From Moesziomyces globuligerus (lineage: Eukaryota; Basidiomycota; Ustilaginomycetes; Ustilaginales; Ustilaginaceae), in assembly GCA_030849465.1 (NCBI GenBank), contig JARVLF010000011.1:62001-126000 (forward strand): 64,000 bases of DNA, given 5' to 3'. Shown here in pieces: positions 53,562-63,514 of the stretch. Under the pieces are notes generated by a model. It searched no databases. It was given only the letters and a program-made list of their open reading frames with translations, and had not been told where the DNA came from. A program made the position numbers and the translations under genes. Position 1 is the stretch's first letter. Every line of letters starts with the position of its first letter.

Positions 53562-55159
53562 CTACATGAACAGCACCGTCTGCGCTACCAGCTCGGCATT
53601 CGACAGCGCAGCAACGCACTCGACCGCCTGCACCAGCTCACACCCATCCTCGTCCAAACCTCTTGCAGCCTCCTCCAGGTGCTGTTGCACAAATCTCGAG
53701 TACTGTAAACGACGGGAGTCAGAATGGGTCAGCGACCATGTCGACACACTCTGGCAAGACGAGTGGTTTCCGAGCCGGTACGCACCAGCAAGAGTCGGAT
53801 GCCTTGACGCTGGCGCTTGGCGTCCAGCACGAGCGCCTCTTCGATCAGATCCAGACAAGTCTCTTGCGTGAGGAAGCTCTGTCCACGCACCACGCGCTCG
53901 AGAGCTTTCAGCATCGCCTTGGCATCCAGCATGCCAGGCGGAGGTCGTGGCTCGGTAGGCACTCGCACCTCGTCTCGTTCCCAATCCGCTTCTGCCGCAT
54001 CCTCCGCATCCTCCGCGCCGTCTCGGGTGCTACTTGATGCATCGTCGTGCGCCCGTGTCCATCCGAACGACTGCTTGGCGTCCAGCTTACCCGCCACGGC
54101 CGCCAGCGAGATCCACGTGTTGGTGCTGCAGTCGAGCACCTCGCTCGGCCGATATTCTGCCTTGTACTTCATCTTCTGGCAGCCGTGGATGTAGAAGCCG
54201 AGATAGTAGTGCTTGATCGCGCGCATCGCTGCCCGCCTTGCCAGCCGTTTGGTGAGCGCCACCTCGTACAGCGCCGTCACCTTGCCCAGCTGCCACTCGG
54301 CCTCGTCCGGATCGTAAAACACGTAGACGCTGCTCACGCACCGCGGCAGGATGTCGACCACCGCCACCGCCACCAACCTGCCCTCCAACCGATACTCCTG
54401 GTGGTAGCAGCCGTACGGAAGCTCGTCGGGCAGCTCGGCAGCGTCCAGCTTCTTGCTCTGCCATTCCGTCTCCTCGGCCGAGCTCAGCGGCTCTCCCGTC
54501 GACGGCCACGTCAGTATGAGGCTCGTGTCGACGAGGAAGCGGCTGAATCCCTTTTCGCTGCTGATGTCCGAGTCGCTCTCGCCGTGGATCTTGGCCTGGT
54601 AGCGCCGGAAGAGCTCGTACTTTTCGGCGCTGCTGCTGGCCAGTGCGAGCTGCACCTGCAGCGTGTGCGTGATCGGCCCAGCTACGCGCTCGGCCCAGGC
54701 GGTCGAGGAGCTCGCCGATCCCGACGCCGCATCCGGGGACGGTGTGATCTCTTGCCAGCGTCGCTCGACGTCCCAGTCGCGGTCTCGGCTCCACTTTCCC
54801 TTCCATCGGGCTGGCTTGGGCCGCGAGCGGCGCACGCCGAAGAGCAGATTGGTCAACGCGCGTCGGTGGCCCTTGGTCGGCTTGTAGTCGTCGACGGCAA
54901 GCCGGATGGGGATCTGAGCGCAGCATGTACGGAGAAGATCCGGCTTGTAGATGTAGTCACCCGAGCGTCTCCAGCCTTGGTCGATGAGCTGCTGGTAGTG
55001 GTAGGGCGAAAGACGGTGCGCCCAGATGCCGTAGGATCGGCTCGACTTGGTGGAGCTCCGCGCGCCTGAGCCCGGAGCGGTGCAGTATCCGCAGGTCGAG
55101 GCAGCGTAGCCCGTGGGCGAGACGATGGATAGCTGCGCTCGGCTCCGCTTGGCTACCAT
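53562..55159 (-). CDS. ATE1: Ate1 arginyl-tRNA-protein transferase
   Basis: Two exons, 55159-53786 and 53702-53562, with an 83 bp intron (GTGCGT...CAG), encode 504 residues. The N-terminal domain has TCGYCTAP, then YGIWAHRLSPYHYQQLIDQG, WRRSGDYIYKPDLLRTCCAQ and IPIRLAV. These cysteines (CGYC and CC) are the iron-sulfur/catalytic positions of Ate1. The GNAT-like C-terminal domain shows GFSRFLVDTSL, GCYHQEYRLEGRLVAVAVVD, ILPRCVSSVYVFYDPDEAEW and YYLGFYIHGCQKMKYKAEYR, all strongly conserved. Ate1 adds arginine to N-terminal Asp/Glu or oxidised Cys, marking proteins for the N-degron pathway. The last exon encodes YSRFVQQHLEE and a variable tail. The gene is divergent from ELP2, 257 bp between start codons. 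Confidence 0.93.
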
Positions 55160-55416
55160 GATCGGTGGGTGCGCTGCAGCAATCGCATGCTGAGTCGGTG
55201 GCAGGAAGCGCAACAGCGAGCGAGCCACTATGCAATGCAGCTGAGCGCTTTTTCGACAGGTGGAGGCCGCTTGGGCCCTTTTTTGGTGCAGTCGAGCGAG
55301 CGTTTCGGGATGCAGCCGACTCTTTTTTTTTTGACTTTTTGCTTTGGCCGAGACGACATCGTCACAGCGACTCTTGCAGCTCGCTCTTGACTGTCACCGG
55401 ACAGGACGACGTCAGC

Positions 55417-58400
55417 ATGGCACCGCAAGCGCTCAGCTCGTACATCTCGGCCGCCTTCAACCGCGCAAACCACGTTGCGGACTGGGCCGATGCTCCGCGC
55501 AGCACCATCGCCTATGCTGCCAACAAGTCGATCGCCATCTGGGAGCTGCCCGGGCACACGCCCTCGCCCGGCGTGACTCGGCTGCTGCCGACGGGCTTCA
55601 GCAAGGCCGTCACATGCCTCAAGTTTGCGACGCTGCACTCGCTGTCGGCGCATCCGTGTGTGATCGCCGGATCAGCCGATGGCACGATTGGCGTCTGGGC
55701 GTCGGATGGCCAGGGCGACTGGTCCAGGGCTCTGACGCTCAAGGCAGCGCACCAGGGTTCAGTCTCGGCTCTGGGCGTGGTGCGCTCCCCTTCTTCGTCC
55801 TCTACATCCGCGCTCTTCGTGTCGGGTGCATCCGACAGCCTGCTCAAGGTCTGGAATCTGACCCAGGATCAGCCGCAGCCGGCCGCACTGGTGCAGACCA
55901 TCGACCTCAAAGGACGCTTCCCGCTCGATCTCTCGCTGCTTCCCCTGCCCGGATCCTCGTCAGCTTCGCAGTCATCACCCAGCTTGCTGCTTGCTCTCGC
56001 TACCACCACCAACAAGATCGACCTATACACTTCAGCACCCTCGCCCGCCCAAGATGGTGCACCTCACCACAGCTTTGAGTTCCAGCTCTCCCTCGAAGGG
56101 CACGAGGACTGGGTCAAATCACTCGATCTCTGCAGTGCCTTGACTGCAGACGCGTCGCAAGGCGAACTGGATACCCTCATGCTAGCCAGCGCATCTCAGG
56201 ATGCCAGCGTCCGCCTCTGGAAGATCGCTCCGGCTACCTCCGACGACACACTCGCGCAGACCAGCTCTGCACCCTCGTCCTCGCGCGCTGACGACGACTT
56301 CGAGCAGATGGTCTCCAAGATCGAATCCGACCAGAGCACGAGGGCCGGAGAGATCTCGACGCGAGCACATCCCTTCTCGATCACCCGAGCCGACGGCAGC
56401 ACGCAGTCCTGGTCCGTCACCTTCGATGCCTTGCTCATCGGCCACGACAACTGGACCACTGGTGTGCGCTGGCACCCGGTCGTGTCCTCGCAAAGTGGGA
56501 GCAAGTATCAGCCTGCTGCGCTCCTCTCTTCTTCGGCTGATAACAGTCTCATCCTCTGGACGCCCTCTGGCAACAATCCGACCGTAAGCTCCGAGCACGC
56601 CTTCCCCGCCTTCGACTCCGACCTCCTCACCGCCGGCGGCGCTCGCCACGCTCGTGGCCCCACCAACCACCTGCTGGCCTCGTCCATTTGGATGCCGTCT
56701 CAGCGATTCGGCGAGGTGGGTGGTGCGAGCAACCTCGGCTTCTTTGGCGCCCTCTGGATGCCCTCTTCCTTCAGCTCCTCGTCCACTTCTCCAGGTAAGC
56801 CCCTTTCTGCCGTAGTCGCACACGGCTGGGGCGGATCCGCACACATCTGGACCTTGACTCGCCAGTCGCCTTCCTCCTCTCACGTCCAGTGGCGAGTTGG
56901 CGATCCCGTCACAGGTCACTTTGGTCCTGCCAAGTCCGTCGCATGGGAGCCCTGCGGCGAGTACCTGCTCAGCTGTTCGGATGACCAGACCACCCGTCTC
57001 CACGCCCGTCCTCTTCAGAAGCTTGGAGAGGCGCTCGACTCGCGTGTGGCTACGTGGCATGAGGTGGCACGTCCGCAGTCCCACGGCTACGACCTTCACT
57101 CGGTCTCCTGGCTCGACCGCCTCAACTTCGTCTCGGCCGCCGACGAGAAGGTGCTTCGTGTCTTTGCTGCTCCGCGTGGCTTCGTCGGAACGGCGGGCAA
57201 GCACGGACTCGACTGCGCTGCCCTTGGGTCCGAACACGAGTCGCGCGCCTCGTACCGTCCCACAGCCGGGCAAGAAGCCCTCCTCCTTTTGGCCGTCGAC
57301 CCAGACGTTGGCTTGCTCCAGTCCGCGAGGAGGCACGGCGATCTGCTCAAGATGGCCGTCGAAAGGTGCTGTAAGGAGCAGAGCGACTCGGTGGTCGCTG
57401 TCGTCTCTTCTTCTCTGTTCGAAAGGCCCTTCTCCCGTCTCAGCTTCAAACAGATCGAGCTCTACCTCAAGTGGCTCTATGCGCAAGCCTGGAGCGTCGC
57501 CGTCCAGCGCGGGCTGATGCTGGTCGACATCACAGTCTTGTTAGCGCCCGACGCTTCGTTAGAGTCGGTCACACGACGCCTGAGCACTCGCCAGACACTG
57601 GTCTTGGTCGATTCAGAACAGGGCCACATGGCCGAGGCCGCAAGCAAGAGCCTTGGTCTGCCTGTCACCTCGCTGCAATCCAGCGTAGATCTTCGAGACA
57701 ACTGCGATGCGGTAGGACGCGACGACGGAAAGGGCTTGGTCTGCTACCCCGTGGTCGCTCTCGGCGGGACGTTTGACCATCTCCACGTCGGGCACAAGAT
57801 CCTGCTCACAATGGCCTCGCTGATTGCCGATCGCGAGATCATTGTTGGCGTCACGGACGATGCCATGCTGACCAAGAAGTCGAACGCCGCTCTCCTTGAG
57901 CCAATCAGCGAACGCATCGCGACGGTCAATGCGTTCATCGGCCTCGTCCGCATGGCCTACACTCCGCTTGCACAGCGCGTGGTCAAGCTCGAGGACGTCG
58001 CTGGACCTGCTGCCACCGAGGCAGACCTGCAGGCGCTGGTCGTTACGGACGAGACGCTCTCTGGCGCCGAGTTCATCGATGGCAAGCGCAAGGAGAATGC
58101 GCTGGCTTCGCTCGAGAACTGGGTCATCGGCGTCGTCGGCAGCGAGGGCGAGACCGACCTGCAGGGCGATGCAAAGGCTCTGGCGGAGAGCAAGATCGGC
58201 AGCACAGCCATCCGGAAGTGGCTCGCCGCACAAGGACCCCGACGCGTCCAGGCCCTGGAGACTGCGAAGCGGCACCGTGTCTCGCACCAGATCCGACTTT
58301 CGAGGAGCGAAGAAGCGAGCAAACTGGATGGTGAAGATGACCGGATCTCTGCGCGGCCCGTCGGAGCCAGCGTGCCGCCGCTCGGACTCTCGAATCGAGC

Positions 58401-59319
58401 CGTGTTTGAGGGCTCGACGATCGAAGAAGCGCCGTCGGCGAGTGGGCAGCCGATCGGAGCTGCCAAGGAGTCGCTCTCGGCCGTGCTGCGGCAGCCGCCG
58501 TCGGAAGAGCAGCTGTCGGTCGAGACGCTCTGGCCCGAGCTCGAAAAGCTCTACGGCCACGGCTACGAGCTGTTGTGGGTGAGTGCCAACCCGCCGAACC
58601 CCGTCGATGGTGGGCGGAGCGGTGGCGGCGGGCGCCTGGTTGCATCTTGCTGCAAGGCGACGAGCGAGGAGCATGCGGTGGTGCGCATCCACGACCGCCA
58701 ACAAAACTGGCGCGAGTGCGCCGTACTCGAGGGCCACACCTTGAGCATCACGCGGATCCAGTGGAGCCTGGACTCGCGCTTCGTGCTGACTTCGTCGCGC
58801 GATCGCAGCTGGCGCATGTACGAGCGACAAGGTCCGCTAGAGGGCGAGGACGAGGTGCACTTCGTGCCTTTCACGGGCGAGCGTTCGCACGCGCGCATCA
58901 TCTGGGACTGCGCCTGGTCCACCGACCCCTCGCGTCCATACGTCTTTGCCACCGCCTCGCGCGATAAGACGGTCAAGCTCTTCGAGCTTCGGTCTGATGC
59001 GCAGGATAGCAAGCCGTTCGCGCTGCTGGCGACGGTCAAGTTCGACCAAGCCGTCACTGCGGTGGCCTTCGGAGCCGACCTCGTGCTCGCGGTGGGCAAG
59101 GAAGATGGATCCGTCGAGCTGCTCCAGCGGACGAGCAAGAACGAGGACGAGGGGGCCAAGGAGTCATGGCAGTCGACCCTCGAGATCGCGCACATGGCGT
59201 CCGAGCAGATCAACCAGCTCGCCTTCCGTCCTCCCGTCTTCCAAGACGCCGACGACGCCATGCTCGCTTCCGCCTCGGAAGACGGCGCCATCCGCCTGAC
59301 CAGGATCGTCGGCCTCTGA
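55417..59319 (+). CDS. ELP2: Elp2 Elongator WD40 subunit with an in-frame phosphopantetheine adenylyltransferase insert
   Basis: Single open frame, 1300 residues from the ATG at 55417 (the frame extends to 55165). Residues 1-590 are the first Elp2 propeller: NHVADWADAPRSTIAYAANK, SFEFQLSLEGHEDWVKSLDL, FGALWMPSSF, TGHFGPAKSVAWEPCGEYLL and FVSAADEKVLRVFAAPRGF. Residues 983-1300 resume Elp2: GASVPPLGLSNRAVFEG, TLWPELEKLYGHGYELLWVS, SLDSRFVLTSSRDRSWRMYE, ARIIWDCAWSTDPSRPYVFA, TASRDKTVKLFELRS. Between them lie about 390 residues that are a PPAT (CoA synthesis), with VVALGGTFDHLHVGHKILL (HxGH at 790-793) and KIGSTAIRKW (926-935). No stop or frame change interrupts the junctions. Elp2 scaffolds Elongator, which modifies tRNA wobble uridines with acetyl-CoA. 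An unspliced nested gene cannot be excluded. Confidence 0.9.
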   Translation: MAPQALSSYISAAFNRANHVADWADAPRSTIAYAANKSIAIWELPGHTPSPGVTRLLPTGFSKAVTCLKFATLHSLSAHPCVIAGSADGTIGVWASDGQGDWSRALTLKAAHQGSVSALGVVRSPSSSSTSALFVSGASDSLLKVWNLTQDQPQPAALVQTIDLKGRFPLDLSLLPLPGSSSASQSSPSLLLALATTTNKIDLYTSAPSPAQDGAPHHSFEFQLSLEGHEDWVKSLDLCSALTADASQGELDTLMLASASQDASVRLWKIAPATSDDTLAQTSSAPSSSRADDDFEQMVSKIESDQSTRAGEISTRAHPFSITRADGSTQSWSVTFDALLIGHDNWTTGVRWHPVVSSQSGSKYQPAALLSSSADNSLILWTPSGNNPTVSSEHAFPAFDSDLLTAGGARHARGPTNHLLASSIWMPSQRFGEVGGASNLGFFGALWMPSSFSSSSTSPGKPLSAVVAHGWGGSAHIWTLTRQSPSSSHVQWRVGDPVTGHFGPAKSVAWEPCGEYLLSCSDDQTTRLHARPLQKLGEALDSRVATWHEVARPQSHGYDLHSVSWLDRLNFVSAADEKVLRVFAAPRGFVGTAGKHGLDCAALGSEHESRASYRPTAGQEALLLLAVDPDVGLLQSARRHGDLLKMAVERCCKEQSDSVVAVVSSSLFERPFSRLSFKQIELYLKWLYAQAWSVAVQRGLMLVDITVLLAPDASLESVTRRLSTRQTLVLVDSEQGHMAEAASKSLGLPVTSLQSSVDLRDNCDAVGRDDGKGLVCYPVVALGGTFDHLHVGHKILLTMASLIADREIIVGVTDDAMLTKKSNAALLEPISERIATVNAFIGLVRMAYTPLAQRVVKLEDVAGPAATEADLQALVVTDETLSGAEFIDGKRKENALASLENWVIGVVGSEGETDLQGDAKALAESKIGSTAIRKWLAAQGPRRVQALETAKRHRVSHQIRLSRSEEASKLDGEDDRISARPVGASVPPLGLSNRAVFEGSTIEEAPSASGQPIGAAKESLSAVLRQPPSEEQLSVETLWPELEKLYGHGYELLWVSANPPNPVDGGRSGGGGRLVASCCKATSEEHAVVRIHDRQQNWRECAVLEGHTLSITRIQWSLDSRFVLTSSRDRSWRMYERQGPLEGEDEVHFVPFTGERSHARIIWDCAWSTDPSRPYVFATASRDKTVKLFELRSDAQDSKPFALLATVKFDQAVTAVAFGADLVLAVGKEDGSVELLQRTSKNEDEGAKESWQSTLEIAHMASEQINQLAFRPPVFQDADDAMLASASEDGAIRLTRIVGL
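57184..58359 (+). other. phosphopantetheine adenylyltransferase domain nested in ELP2
   Basis: Residues about 590-982 of the ELP2 product. The first 180 residues resemble the poorly conserved N-terminal region of eukaryotic PPAT (EALLLLAVDPDVGLL, LSFKQIELYLKWLYAQAW). The nucleotidyltransferase core begins at VVALGGTFDHLHVGHKILL, with the (T/H)xGH catalytic motif, continues with IIVGVTDDAMLTKKSNAALL, EPISERIATVNAFIGLV, ALVVTDETLSGAEFIDGKRK and ENALASLENWVIGVVG, and ends with IGSTAIR, the counterpart of ISSTxIR. All catalytic elements look intact. The enzyme turns 4'-phosphopantetheine and ATP into dephospho-CoA. No separate PPAT gene is seen in this window. Confidence 0.88.
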
Positions 59320-59378: not shown

Positions 59379-60243
<865 letters not shown>

Positions 60244-60832
60244 TGTGTTGTGTATGATGGTGTTAGCCAGAGATGCGTAGAGGTGATGGTGGGTCGGGTT
60301 TGGCAAAGTGATGATCGGAAAGGTGGCCGACAAAGCGTCGACCGACGAGGTGCACAGACATGCCGACGGCGCGCGCTGCTCACGCTCACGCTCGTTGAGC
60401 AGCGCAGCCAGAGGTGGAGGAGAAGCCGCCCAAATTCCCAGCTTCACAATTCGCGCGTCTAACTTATCGGCTGCACGCCCGATGCGCAGCAGCGTGGCGT
60501 GGGAGATGTGATTTGTGATTTCAGCGATCCAGAGTCTCGGGCGCTGAGCAGCGGTCAGGGTCCAAAGGCTGAGCTGCATCGGAGAAATGCCGACTGCGCC
60601 CTGGCGCAGTGTGAATCAGGGTGGAGGAGGAGCGTGTCAGTTGATTCATCAGCTCTTGCTCCATCACCACCTCATCCGAAAGCATGACACCGACATCGGA
60701 GGAGCCGCCTGCCTCTTGATAGCCTGCTAGCTTGCGACGCGCCGATCGCCAGCTCAGACGAGACATGTGGGCGCTGCAAAAGGGCATCCAAGTGGCCCCA
60801 ACGCAGTGAGCGTCGTCGCTTTATCCATCGCC
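60244..60832. other. divergent promoter region of RBX1 and ATG14
   Basis: A 589 bp spacer; I see no other gene, repeat or RNA in it. It should drive both neighbours. Confidence 0.5.
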
Positions 60833-63514
60833 ATGTCGTCGCCGTCGACCAAATCGCGACCTTCGCGGTCTAATCAGCTTCCTCAACGCCATCCGCTTCG
60901 CATCCACTCCGCTCCTCTCTCCGCACATCGTGCTCAACAGCCGTCATCCCGATCCGATGCGGCTCATCCTTCGCTCGCCCAGCTTCGCCATGCCTCGGCG
61001 TCGCAGTCCTCCACCTCGCCGCACGCGTGTCACAACTGCCATCAGATGGAGACGCGCTTCTATTGCGACCCCTGCCTCAGCTCCAGGATCAACGCGCATC
61101 ATAACGAGATTCGTAGGCTCTCTCTCACACGAGATAAAGCTAGGCAATCGGTGCAATTGCTCCTCACCGACCGCCTGGCCAATCCCCAGGCTTCCTCCAC
61201 TGACGTCCCCCCTTCGCCGGCTACGGGTCAAACGGCCCTGCCAGACCCTTTCAACACGAGCGCGGCCGAGGGCGTACCTTCCGAGCTCCCGCAGGGGAGC
61301 CTGCTCTTACAGCCACTCATCGAGCTGAGAGCACGAAGAGCAGCCCTCGTTTCGCGTGTCCAGAACATCCACCAGTGCATCGCCCAATCGCAACAGAGCC
61401 GTCTTCAGGCACATGAAAGCCTCCAAGAGCAGCAGGCCCGTATCGTACTGCGCCAACAAAATCTAGCAAAAGCCTGGTCAAGTCTCGAGGGCTCCTCCGC
61501 AGCGTCGTCTGCCTCTGCCTCGCAGCGTGCACGTCATGCCAATCGCTCGCGCTGGCTCACCCATCCCGCTGCCGATCACATCGACACCCCGCTCATCTTC
61601 ACCGATGTCTATACCCAATACGAAAAGCAGGAGGAATCGGCCGCACCCACGCCTTCTCCTGCCGAGCCCGTCGACACGCAGCTCGGAGCGGTCCTCACAC
61701 ACACACGCCTCCAGCTCGCGTCTTTGCAAGCCGAGGCCGCCACCCTATCTGCCGAGCTTTCCGTCACCAGGGCCAGGCTGGCGCGTCAGGCCTTCCGACT
61801 CTTTACTGTCTCCCCGCCAGAGTCAACTTCATCATCGAGAACGACGACGACCAACTCACCTCGCTCACGTCAGGCTGATCTCTCTGCGAGCAGTTCGGTC
61901 GCGCAGCGTATCAGCAAGCTCTCTGAAAGGTATATCCCTGGCGCCTTTGGTCTCGGCCAGACGCAAGCCTCTCTGATCGGTCTCAGCAATCCCGACTCGG
62001 CCTCGTCAAGTCGTCGAAGCGCTCGCACGCCCAGCTCTCGCACTAGCCCGAAGGATTCCACATGGTCCATCGCATCTCTCCCGCTGCCGCTGCCGAGCGA
62101 GGTACGCAGGCACTCTCTCGAAGATGTCAACGGCGCCGTCACGTACGCCGTCAATCTCGTTCAGCTGCTCGCCGCTTATCTCGGAATCACGCTGCCCTTC
62201 TGCATCGAGCAGCACAAGGGACGCTTCTCACTCAGACCCGATCCGCTCTGGGATGGCGGCGGCGGCTCGAGTGCCAAGACACTCTACCTTTCGCAGCGCG
62301 CCTACGCAAATCTCAGTAGCGCCCACTCCAGCCCAACCAAGACTTTCAAGCTCAACAACCTGGCAGAGTCTACCATCGGCCTGGGAGCCTCCACCCTCTC
62401 CACCATCGAGTCCTACATCCATTTACCCTCCGGTGCTGGCCTACCCTGGGGCACAACACACTCTCCGACGTCGAAATCAAGCTCAGGCTCTGCCGACGCG
62501 GATCCTGAAACGAACGACGAAGGGCGAACCGAGGGCGCGGAACGCACTTCCTCCGCGTCCGGCACGCAGTCCAAGCCGGACCAAGCAGCCCGCTCGTTTG
62601 TTTCCGCGCTCGTCATGCTGTCGTACGATGTCGCCTATCTCGCGGCGAAGCAGGGCGTGCAGCTGGATCTGGTAACAGCGGCAGCCAATCCGCTCCAGCT
62701 CGTGTCGACGATCATGCGGCAGTCGGAGCTCGGTCGTCGGGCACATGCGAACTTCCTGCCGGCGTCGAGCATTTCGGACCTGAGTTTGCCCTCGCTGGAC
62801 TACGAGCAGCTCGCCCAGATCCTGGAGCCCAACAACGCTGCTGCCGATGGATACAAGCGCGGCTCGTCGCGTCCGACCAAAGCGGCTGCGGCGAATGCGG
62901 CTACATCTCGCGCGTCGGGTGCCGCACAGGCTTCGCCGCACAAGCTCCTCGAGCAAAGCTACGTCGACGTCGGCGAGGCAGCAGCGTCAGTGCTCGGACT
63001 CAAGGATCCGTCTTCGGTCGCTCACACGGCAAAGACGAAGCAGACGGGTCGGTCCGCCTCGCAAAAGTCTAAGGCGGAACAGAAGGATGCCGATTGCCAG
63101 GATGCAGCTCGCCGCAATGTCGTGGATGACTTGCCGATCCAGAATTCGGCGGCGAAGGGGCGTATCGTATCCGCACCGGCAGCGCAGCCGCCTCCTTCGC
63201 TTGAGTTCCTGCGCCAGCGCGGACGCGACGCCTCCAAGCTCAAGGCGGATACCGTGGCTGCCACCTCCGCTAGCTCCGGCTCGAGGAGGAACGAGTCGGC
63301 GGCCGTTACGAAGCCCAGTACGATGCCAGAACCTGAGCTTGCGGGTCCAGACAGCCGCAAGATCGGCCCGGGCGCAGTCATCTTTAACGGTGTCGAGGTC
63401 GGTGTTGGGAATATGGCAACTGGAGAAGGGGATCGTTTGGCGGCTCTGGGTTCTCGGCAGGTCCGCGAAAAGTCGCGCAAGCGCTCGACGGAAGAAGGCT
63501 GGGCTCTAGTCTAA
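60833..63514 (+). CDS. ATG14: Atg14/Barkor-like subunit of the autophagy PI3-kinase complex
   Basis: Single exon, 893 residues from the ATG at 60833. Residues 66-81 hold the paired cysteines of Atg14, CHNCHQMETRFYCDPC (Cys66, 69, 78, 81), followed by a helical segment INAHHNEIRRLSLTRDKARQ. Residues about 160-225 and 290-340 are coiled coil (LIELRARRAALVSRVQNIHQ, LQLASLQAEAATLSAELSVT). The C-terminal BARA-like region has VTYAVNLVQLLAAYLGITLP, FCIEQHKGRFSLRPDPLWDG and FVSALVMLSYDVAYLAAKQG, typical of Atg14/UVRAG. The remaining 200 residues are low complexity. The protein would target Vps34-Vps15-Vps30 to autophagosome sites. Vps38/UVRAG is the alternative, but the N-terminal cysteine pairs favour Atg14. 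Confidence 0.82.
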   Translation: MSSPSTKSRPSRSNQLPQRHPLRIHSAPLSAHRAQQPSSRSDAAHPSLAQLRHASASQSSTSPHACHNCHQMETRFYCDPCLSSRINAHHNEIRRLSLTRDKARQSVQLLLTDRLANPQASSTDVPPSPATGQTALPDPFNTSAAEGVPSELPQGSLLLQPLIELRARRAALVSRVQNIHQCIAQSQQSRLQAHESLQEQQARIVLRQQNLAKAWSSLEGSSAASSASASQRARHANRSRWLTHPAADHIDTPLIFTDVYTQYEKQEESAAPTPSPAEPVDTQLGAVLTHTRLQLASLQAEAATLSAELSVTRARLARQAFRLFTVSPPESTSSSRTTTTNSPRSRQADLSASSSVAQRISKLSERYIPGAFGLGQTQASLIGLSNPDSASSSRRSARTPSSRTSPKDSTWSIASLPLPLPSEVRRHSLEDVNGAVTYAVNLVQLLAAYLGITLPFCIEQHKGRFSLRPDPLWDGGGGSSAKTLYLSQRAYANLSSAHSSPTKTFKLNNLAESTIGLGASTLSTIESYIHLPSGAGLPWGTTHSPTSKSSSGSADADPETNDEGRTEGAERTSSASGTQSKPDQAARSFVSALVMLSYDVAYLAAKQGVQLDLVTAAANPLQLVSTIMRQSELGRRAHANFLPASSISDLSLPSLDYEQLAQILEPNNAAADGYKRGSSRPTKAAAANAATSRASGAAQASPHKLLEQSYVDVGEAAASVLGLKDPSSVAHTAKTKQTGRSASQKSKAEQKDADCQDAARRNVVDDLPIQNSAAKGRIVSAPAAQPPPSLEFLRQRGRDASKLKADTVAATSASSGSRRNESAAVTKPSTMPEPELAGPDSRKIGPGAVIFNGVEVGVGNMATGEGDRLAALGSRQVREKSRKRSTEEGWALV

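Follow-up and report, generated by a model that had tools for sequence, protein, structure and literature searches.

A phosphopantetheine adenylyltransferase encoded within the Elp2 reading frame of Moesziomyces globuligerus and other Ustilaginomycotina

We analysed a 64,000-nucleotide stretch of Moesziomyces globuligerus DNA (the window; positions 62,001 to 126,000 of contig JARVLF010000011.1, assembly GCA_030849465.1) in which the gene for the Elongator subunit Elp2 carries a phosphopantetheine adenylyltransferase (PPAT), an enzyme of coenzyme A (CoA) synthesis, inside its own reading frame. As a preliminary description of this DNA had proposed, the frame is uninterrupted, with Elp2 on both sides and PPAT within; it runs through 1,300 codons. 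The insertion site is shared with a broad set of fungal relatives, the active site is retained and a search of this genome turned up no other PPAT. The locus thus most probably encodes one bifunctional Elp2–PPAT protein of single origin that has replaced the separate PPAT (probability about 0.85). That the protein is made as a single chain, is active as a PPAT, joins Elongator and is essential, and that the join arose once at the base of Ustilaginomycotina, is what we infer. Here two basic processes, each served by its own protein in other fungi, seem to depend on a single one.

The plus-strand frame is open over 55165–59319, and the ATG at 55417 gives a protein of 1,300 residues (55417–59319) with a calculated mass of 139.4 kDa. 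Other frames across this GC-rich region also carry open reading frames (ORFs) of up to 434 residues, so ORF length by itself is no evidence for a gene. Chance does not account for the open frame, because none of 2,000 shuffles of the letters of the insert remained open in frame and because the frame and its motifs are kept in relatives. The parts of the protein are as follows.

55417–57186, plus strand: Elp2 residues 1–590, WD40 propeller 1 and the beginning of propeller 2 (phmmer matches to solved Elp2 chains; alignment).
57157–57159, plus strand: Arg581, equivalent to human ELP2 Arg462 (alignment to 8ptx_B; residue reported in PMC8113450).
57187–58359, plus strand: the whole insert in the Elp2 loop, residues 591–981 (loop lengths with and without insert).
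57187–57267, plus strand: variable N-terminal linker, residues 591–617 (8–81% identity to ten fused relatives).
57268–57741, plus strand: N-terminal domain of a eukaryotic-type PPAT, residues 618–775 (alignment with standalone PPATs; predicted α/β fold).
57742–58230, plus strand: PPAT catalytic domain, residues 776–938 (PF01467; archaeal PPAT 3do8; identity to relatives).
57763–57795, plus strand: GGTFDHLHVGH nucleotide-binding motif, residues 783–793 (G783–H790, G792 and H793 invariant across the 50 inserts).
58195–58215, plus strand: IGSTAIR motif, residues 927–933 (K926, S929 and R933 invariant across the 50 inserts; T930 and I932 each kept in 49).
58231–58359, plus strand: predicted C-terminal helix and linker leading back into Elp2, residues 939–981 (helical model with lower-confidence patches; 6–72% identity).
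58360–59319, plus strand: Elp2 residues 982–1300 and stop, the remainder of the second propeller, starting at GASVPPLGLSN (phmmer matches to solved Elp2; 45–81% identity).

The preliminary description had given the insert as 57184–58359; its end stands, and its start moves to 57187. Its figure of about 390 residues of PPAT is a little high: of the 391 inserted residues, roughly 320 make up the N-terminal and catalytic domains and the remainder is linker. Judged by alignment, a whole PPAT of the eukaryotic type is present, each of its two domains aligning with standalone fungal PPATs. PF01467 matches with 34.3 bits in the insert alone and 32.9 bits in the whole protein (curated cut-off 21), the best NCBIfam model is a PPAT model, and the best solved relative of the domain is the archaeal PPAT 3do8 (E = 1.6e-9), with cholinephosphate enzymes at E ≥ 0.069. 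PPATs are recognized by motifs named (T/H)xGH and, towards the C terminus, SxxxR. The corresponding motifs in the window, GGTFDHLHVGH and KIGSTAIR, are intact as first described, and their key columns are identical in all 50 inserts compared (the window and 49 database proteins, some of them from the same species and some partial). Of 40 columns that are at least 90% conserved in 27 chosen standalone PPATs, 33 show an unchanged residue in 90% or more of the 50 inserts. Conservation along the protein is highest in the catalytic domain (46–94% identity to ten chosen fused relatives), and identity to the same ten drops to 6–8% in the linkers. Structure models predict an α/β fold for the N-terminal PPAT domain and a helical C-terminal linker.

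The flanking sequence is that of Elp2. Solved Elp2 chains from mouse, human and yeast match the whole protein over the stretches flanking the insert (phmmer, E = 4e-92 to 4.4e-72), with the alignment interrupted at the insert between chain residues 476 and 486 of yeast Elp2 and 472 and 491 of human ELP2. An alignment of the window protein, 17 fused relatives and 12 insert-free proteins shows the insert beginning and ending in one common loop. In the 113 of 240 examined proteins that showed both flank patterns, this loop is 26–46 residues long in 63 ordinary Elp2 proteins and 333–441 in the 50 fused ones (window included), with no intermediate lengths. The earlier placement of the insert in a variable loop between two Elp2 blocks is thus supported, the loop being short in other fungi. 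The window keeps 146 of 155 highly conserved Elp2 columns, and identity to the ten fused relatives is 40–79% to the left of the insert and 45–81% to the right. The models predict the double WD40 propeller fold of Elp2, undisturbed by the folded insert, and the matches listed by structure search are propeller proteins, a result that concerns the Elp2 part of the fold.

The insertion point lies 10 residues beyond Arg581, which aligns with human ELP2 R462, a residue that is altered in patients and is reported to form part of the ELP2 interface with the Elp3 SAM domain (PMC8113450). Yeast Elp2 is reported to clamp Elp3 on the side opposite Elp1 (PMC10018365). The PPAT may therefore be positioned near Elp3, closeness in sequence being no demonstration of closeness in space.

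Residues 560–1000 of the window protein match 63 proteins in a protein search that, like the search for standalone PPATs, scored the best 7,996 candidates by shared words. Fused relatives, which the preliminary description could not see from the letters alone, are present in number (the 49 database proteins noted above), and the named ones belong to Sporisorium, Ustilago, Kalmanozyma, Pseudozyma, Melanopsichium, Testicularia, Violaceomyces, Microstroma, Tilletiaria, Parajaminaea, Sympodiomycopsis, Ceraceosorus, Exobasidium, Meira, Jaminaea and several Malassezia, genera that we take to represent Ustilaginomycetes, Exobasidiomycetes and Malasseziomycetes. Some public records call the fused protein simply Elp2, or cytidyltransferase. 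Other basidiomycetes and mucoromycetes among the matches listed have a standalone PPAT, and their Elp2 proteins are 746–915 residues long (best 120 of 632 Elp2 matches). Tilletia is the exception: it has, among the matches listed, at least five standalone PPATs (344–364 residues) and at least five Elp2 proteins without insert (893–985 residues); in T. maclaganii the locus tags of the two genes are far apart. Two standalone PPATs of Tilletia horrida (P0067 and P0070) are labelled 'Elongator subunit elp2' with PF01467 alone in their Pfam column, a label apparently transferred from fused relatives.

The same searches returned some unusual records. P0042, from the fern Adiantum nelumboides (834 residues), is an Elp2–PPAT record that most likely reflects fungal contamination of the assembly. 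Four of the 63 matches (P0059–P0062) are other PPAT-bearing proteins. P0059, from Pseudohyphozyma (1,738 residues), combines PPAT with glycosyltransferase-like and DNA-glycosylase parts and looks like merged gene models. P0060–P0062 (895–962 residues, source lgn; 57–62% mutual identity) are WHIM1-domain proteins with a C-terminal PPAT bearing the motifs GGTFDHLHAGH and LSSTAIR, and may represent another PPAT fusion of independent origin, or else neighbouring gene models that have been merged.

A profile search finds PF01467 at three places in the 18.5 Mb genome, and we read the two ORFs other than the fusion as a cholinephosphate cytidylyltransferase and an NMNAT. The second PPAT that the preliminary description had thought worth looking for was not found: a standalone agaricomycete PPAT used as query (E up to 1, exon-wise search with the best candidates scored) returns the fusion locus only. 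The whole fusion protein as query gives one full match and two weak WD40 matches. This is strong evidence, short of proof, that the fusion locus encodes the sole PPAT of this genome. Dephospho-CoA kinase is separate, encoded by a 280-residue ORF on contig C8 with a CoaE match above cut-off; a further CoaE match, on contig C6, falls under the cut-off, and the fusion protein, with 21 Pfam matches, has none to a CoaE family. The Elongator partners Elp1 (propeller, PF04762), a candidate Elp3 (Radical_SAM_C, PF16199) and Elp4 (PAXNEB, PF05625) each match at one place, away from the fusion locus. The divergent neighbour of the fusion gene encodes an arginyl-tRNA-protein transferase (ATE1; 53729–55228, minus strand; PF04376 and PF04377), and a cysteine-rich gene at about 59500–60245 on the minus strand, apparently split by an intron, probably encodes an Rbx1-type RING protein, as judged by eye.

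In the bifunctional protein that we favour, the Elp2 part would form two WD40 propellers and play its usual role in Elongator, and the PPAT (N-terminal domain, catalytic domain and linkers) would protrude from a loop of the second propeller and make dephospho-CoA for the cell. If the fused PPAT replaced the separate gene, the fourth step of CoA synthesis would be carried on Elp2, and on Elongator insofar as Elp2 is there, and the fusion would persist because the separate PPAT has been lost. In our view the join is more likely to have been permissive and largely neutral at first, and to have become obligatory later, than to have been selected for channelling. CAB4 is reported to be essential in yeast (PMC8494682) and ELP2 is listed among the lipid-accumulation mutants of a Rhodosporidium insertion library (PMC5922974). 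We therefore expect the fused locus to be essential on account of its PPAT, which would set it apart from ELP2 elsewhere.

Several results weigh against this reading. The prokaryote PPAT model NF001985 gives 88.7 bits, below a cut-off of 104 that serves for naming prokaryotic proteins. Three of the 50 inserts miss a strict motif pattern, at its first position only, and the N-terminal PPAT domain is less conserved than Elp2 (20–75% identity to the ten fused relatives). Across 47 fused rows the conserved Elp2 residue is in the majority at 150 of the 155 columns and reaches 90% at 110. A divergent second PPAT could have been missed, since the genome search was exon-wise, scored only the best candidates and did not list an ethanolamine-phosphate cytidylyltransferase, an enzyme expected in this genome. 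Tilletia does without the fusion, and the trees do not set it cleanly apart. In a 62-row PPAT tree the fused proteins and Tilletia form one clade (support 100/99), with Tilletia falling inside the fused set (96/85) and a fused-only side appearing in 4% of the 200 bootstrap trees. A quick Elp2 tree has the fused proteins on one side of a branch with a support of 48, and the combined PPAT and Elp2 data give a fused-only side in 35% of bootstrap trees (approximately unbiased test, p = 0.338).

The PPAT data do not reject a clade of all fused proteins (approximately unbiased test, p = 0.173). In a quick PPAT-domain tree of 107 rows, which has long branches and omits 14 of the 100 matches of the standalone search, none of 77 standalone rows joins the fused ones and the five of Tilletia do. 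The window sequence itself clusters with Ustilaginales in the PPAT and combined trees. The separate Tilletia genes may stem from a later fission or from branching before the fusion, and the trees accommodate both. A published 192-protein analysis places Tilletia within Exobasidiomycetes, with some backbone nodes of the class unresolved (PMC7184893), and this placement favours gain followed by fission. With Tilletia placed in Exobasidiomycetes and with Tilletiaria, Exobasidium and Malassezia fused, the most economical account would be one gain and a subsequent split in Tilletia. The join would then have a single origin close to the base of Ustilaginomycotina.

Retention could instead be functional, with a benefit from having PPAT at Elongator: it might raise the supply of CoA near Elp3, or occupancy by the PPAT substrate or CoA might alter Elongator activity through the linked loop. 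The preliminary description had proposed something similar, with CoA produced on the Elongator scaffold or CoA levels tied to translation. We regard this bolder reading as unlikely. The nearness of the insert to the R462 equivalent and the clamping of Elp3 by Elp2 (PMC10018365) speak for it, as do the long retention of the architecture in several classes although the linkers drift, the use of acetyl-CoA by Elongator (PMC8113450) and a reported reduction of lipid accumulation upon Elongator disruption in Rhodosporidium (PMC5922974). However, PPAT makes dephospho-CoA and not the acetyl-CoA that Elp3 uses, the enzyme that follows has a gene of its own, the linkers are poorly conserved and the Tilletia proteins are separate. 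Equally speculative is the corollary that in Ustilaginomycotina except Tilletia the sole PPAT is a working part of Elongator beside Elp3, such that CoA supply and wobble-uridine modification rise and fall together, with Tilletia as a natural reversal. It is more doubtful still that the locus yields two products, with PPAT made from a nested transcript or cleaved from the chain, so that coding space alone is fused. Variable linkers on both sides of the insert and in-frame ATGs at 57352, 57517 and 57628 would suit such a scheme, but the first of these ATGs lies 28 residues into the N-terminal domain and 40 of the 50 inserts have no Met between 25 residues before and 3 after the first PPAT strand. 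The nested gene offered in the preliminary description is thereby weakened as regards a conserved start, 10 of the 50 inserts having a Met there; this survey carries no weight against cleavage.

There is a very small chance that the PPAT is catalytically dead and serves as a scaffold or sensor. PF01467 is missing from the precomputed Pfam matches of several fused proteins, among them those of Exobasidium (P0035), Jaminaea (P0037) and Meira (P0040), yet all three retain GGTFDHLHxGH and VGSTAIR, and the uniform active-site columns and the single PPAT found in this genome argue further against a dead enzyme. An artefact of splicing, assembly or annotation is less likely again. Acceptor-like YAG sites occur at 58288 and 58368, but 49 database proteins besides the window carry an insert of matching extent, codon-position GC is alike in insert and flanks, and no GTRNG donor was found in 57151–57300. 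The spliced-out insert raised in the preliminary description can accordingly be set aside as very unlikely, together with an artefact and a dead enzyme, on the conserved extent and active site, the lack of a GTRNG donor in that interval and the failure to find another PPAT.

If one bifunctional Elp2–PPAT protein is made, then throughout much of a fungal subphylum to which smuts and skin yeasts belong, an enzyme of central metabolism that is essential in yeast lies hidden in part of a complex with which it has no known relation, in a fusion that appears old, widespread and obligatory. The predicted essentiality of ELP2 in fused fungi contrasts with the place of ELP2 among the Rhodosporidium mutants (PMC5922974). 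The fusion allows a direct test of coupling between CoA metabolism and Elongator, for which Tilletia offers a counterpart that is unfused by sequence, and marks a site in Elp2 that tolerates an insertion of about 390 residues.

Fusion of PPAT is known in kind, as CoA synthase; PPAT inside Elp2 appears to be new, as no paper describing it was found among open-licence full texts, in agreement with the preliminary description. Domain insertions, too, are known in kind, and the domains of mammalian COASY are joined end to end, unlike the loop insertion here. The protein resembles solved Elp2 (yeast 4xfv, 5m2n and 8asw; human 8ptx) in the sequence flanking the insert, the predicted fold and the conserved columns, and differs by 391 residues inserted in a loop that measures 26–46 in 63 Elp2 proteins without insert. 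It shares with standalone fungal PPATs (yeast Cab4 type; P0080 and Tilletia P0067) the N-terminal and catalytic domains and the HxGH and SxxxR motifs, but standalone PPATs have their own start and stop whereas the fused PPAT has neither and sits inside another protein. The unverified WHIM1–PPAT models P0060–P0062 likewise join PPAT to a non-CoA protein, but at the C terminus and with a WHIM1-type partner. In COASY, PPAT is again part of a bifunctional protein, with dephospho-CoA kinase as its partner (PMC8494682); here the partner is Elp2, and in place of the CoaE domain of COASY there is a separate kinase ORF. The Cab3-based CoA-synthesizing protein complex of yeast (PMC8494682) also holds PPAT on a protein scaffold, but bound to another CoA enzyme, whereas here PPAT is held covalently in a subunit of a tRNA-modifying complex.
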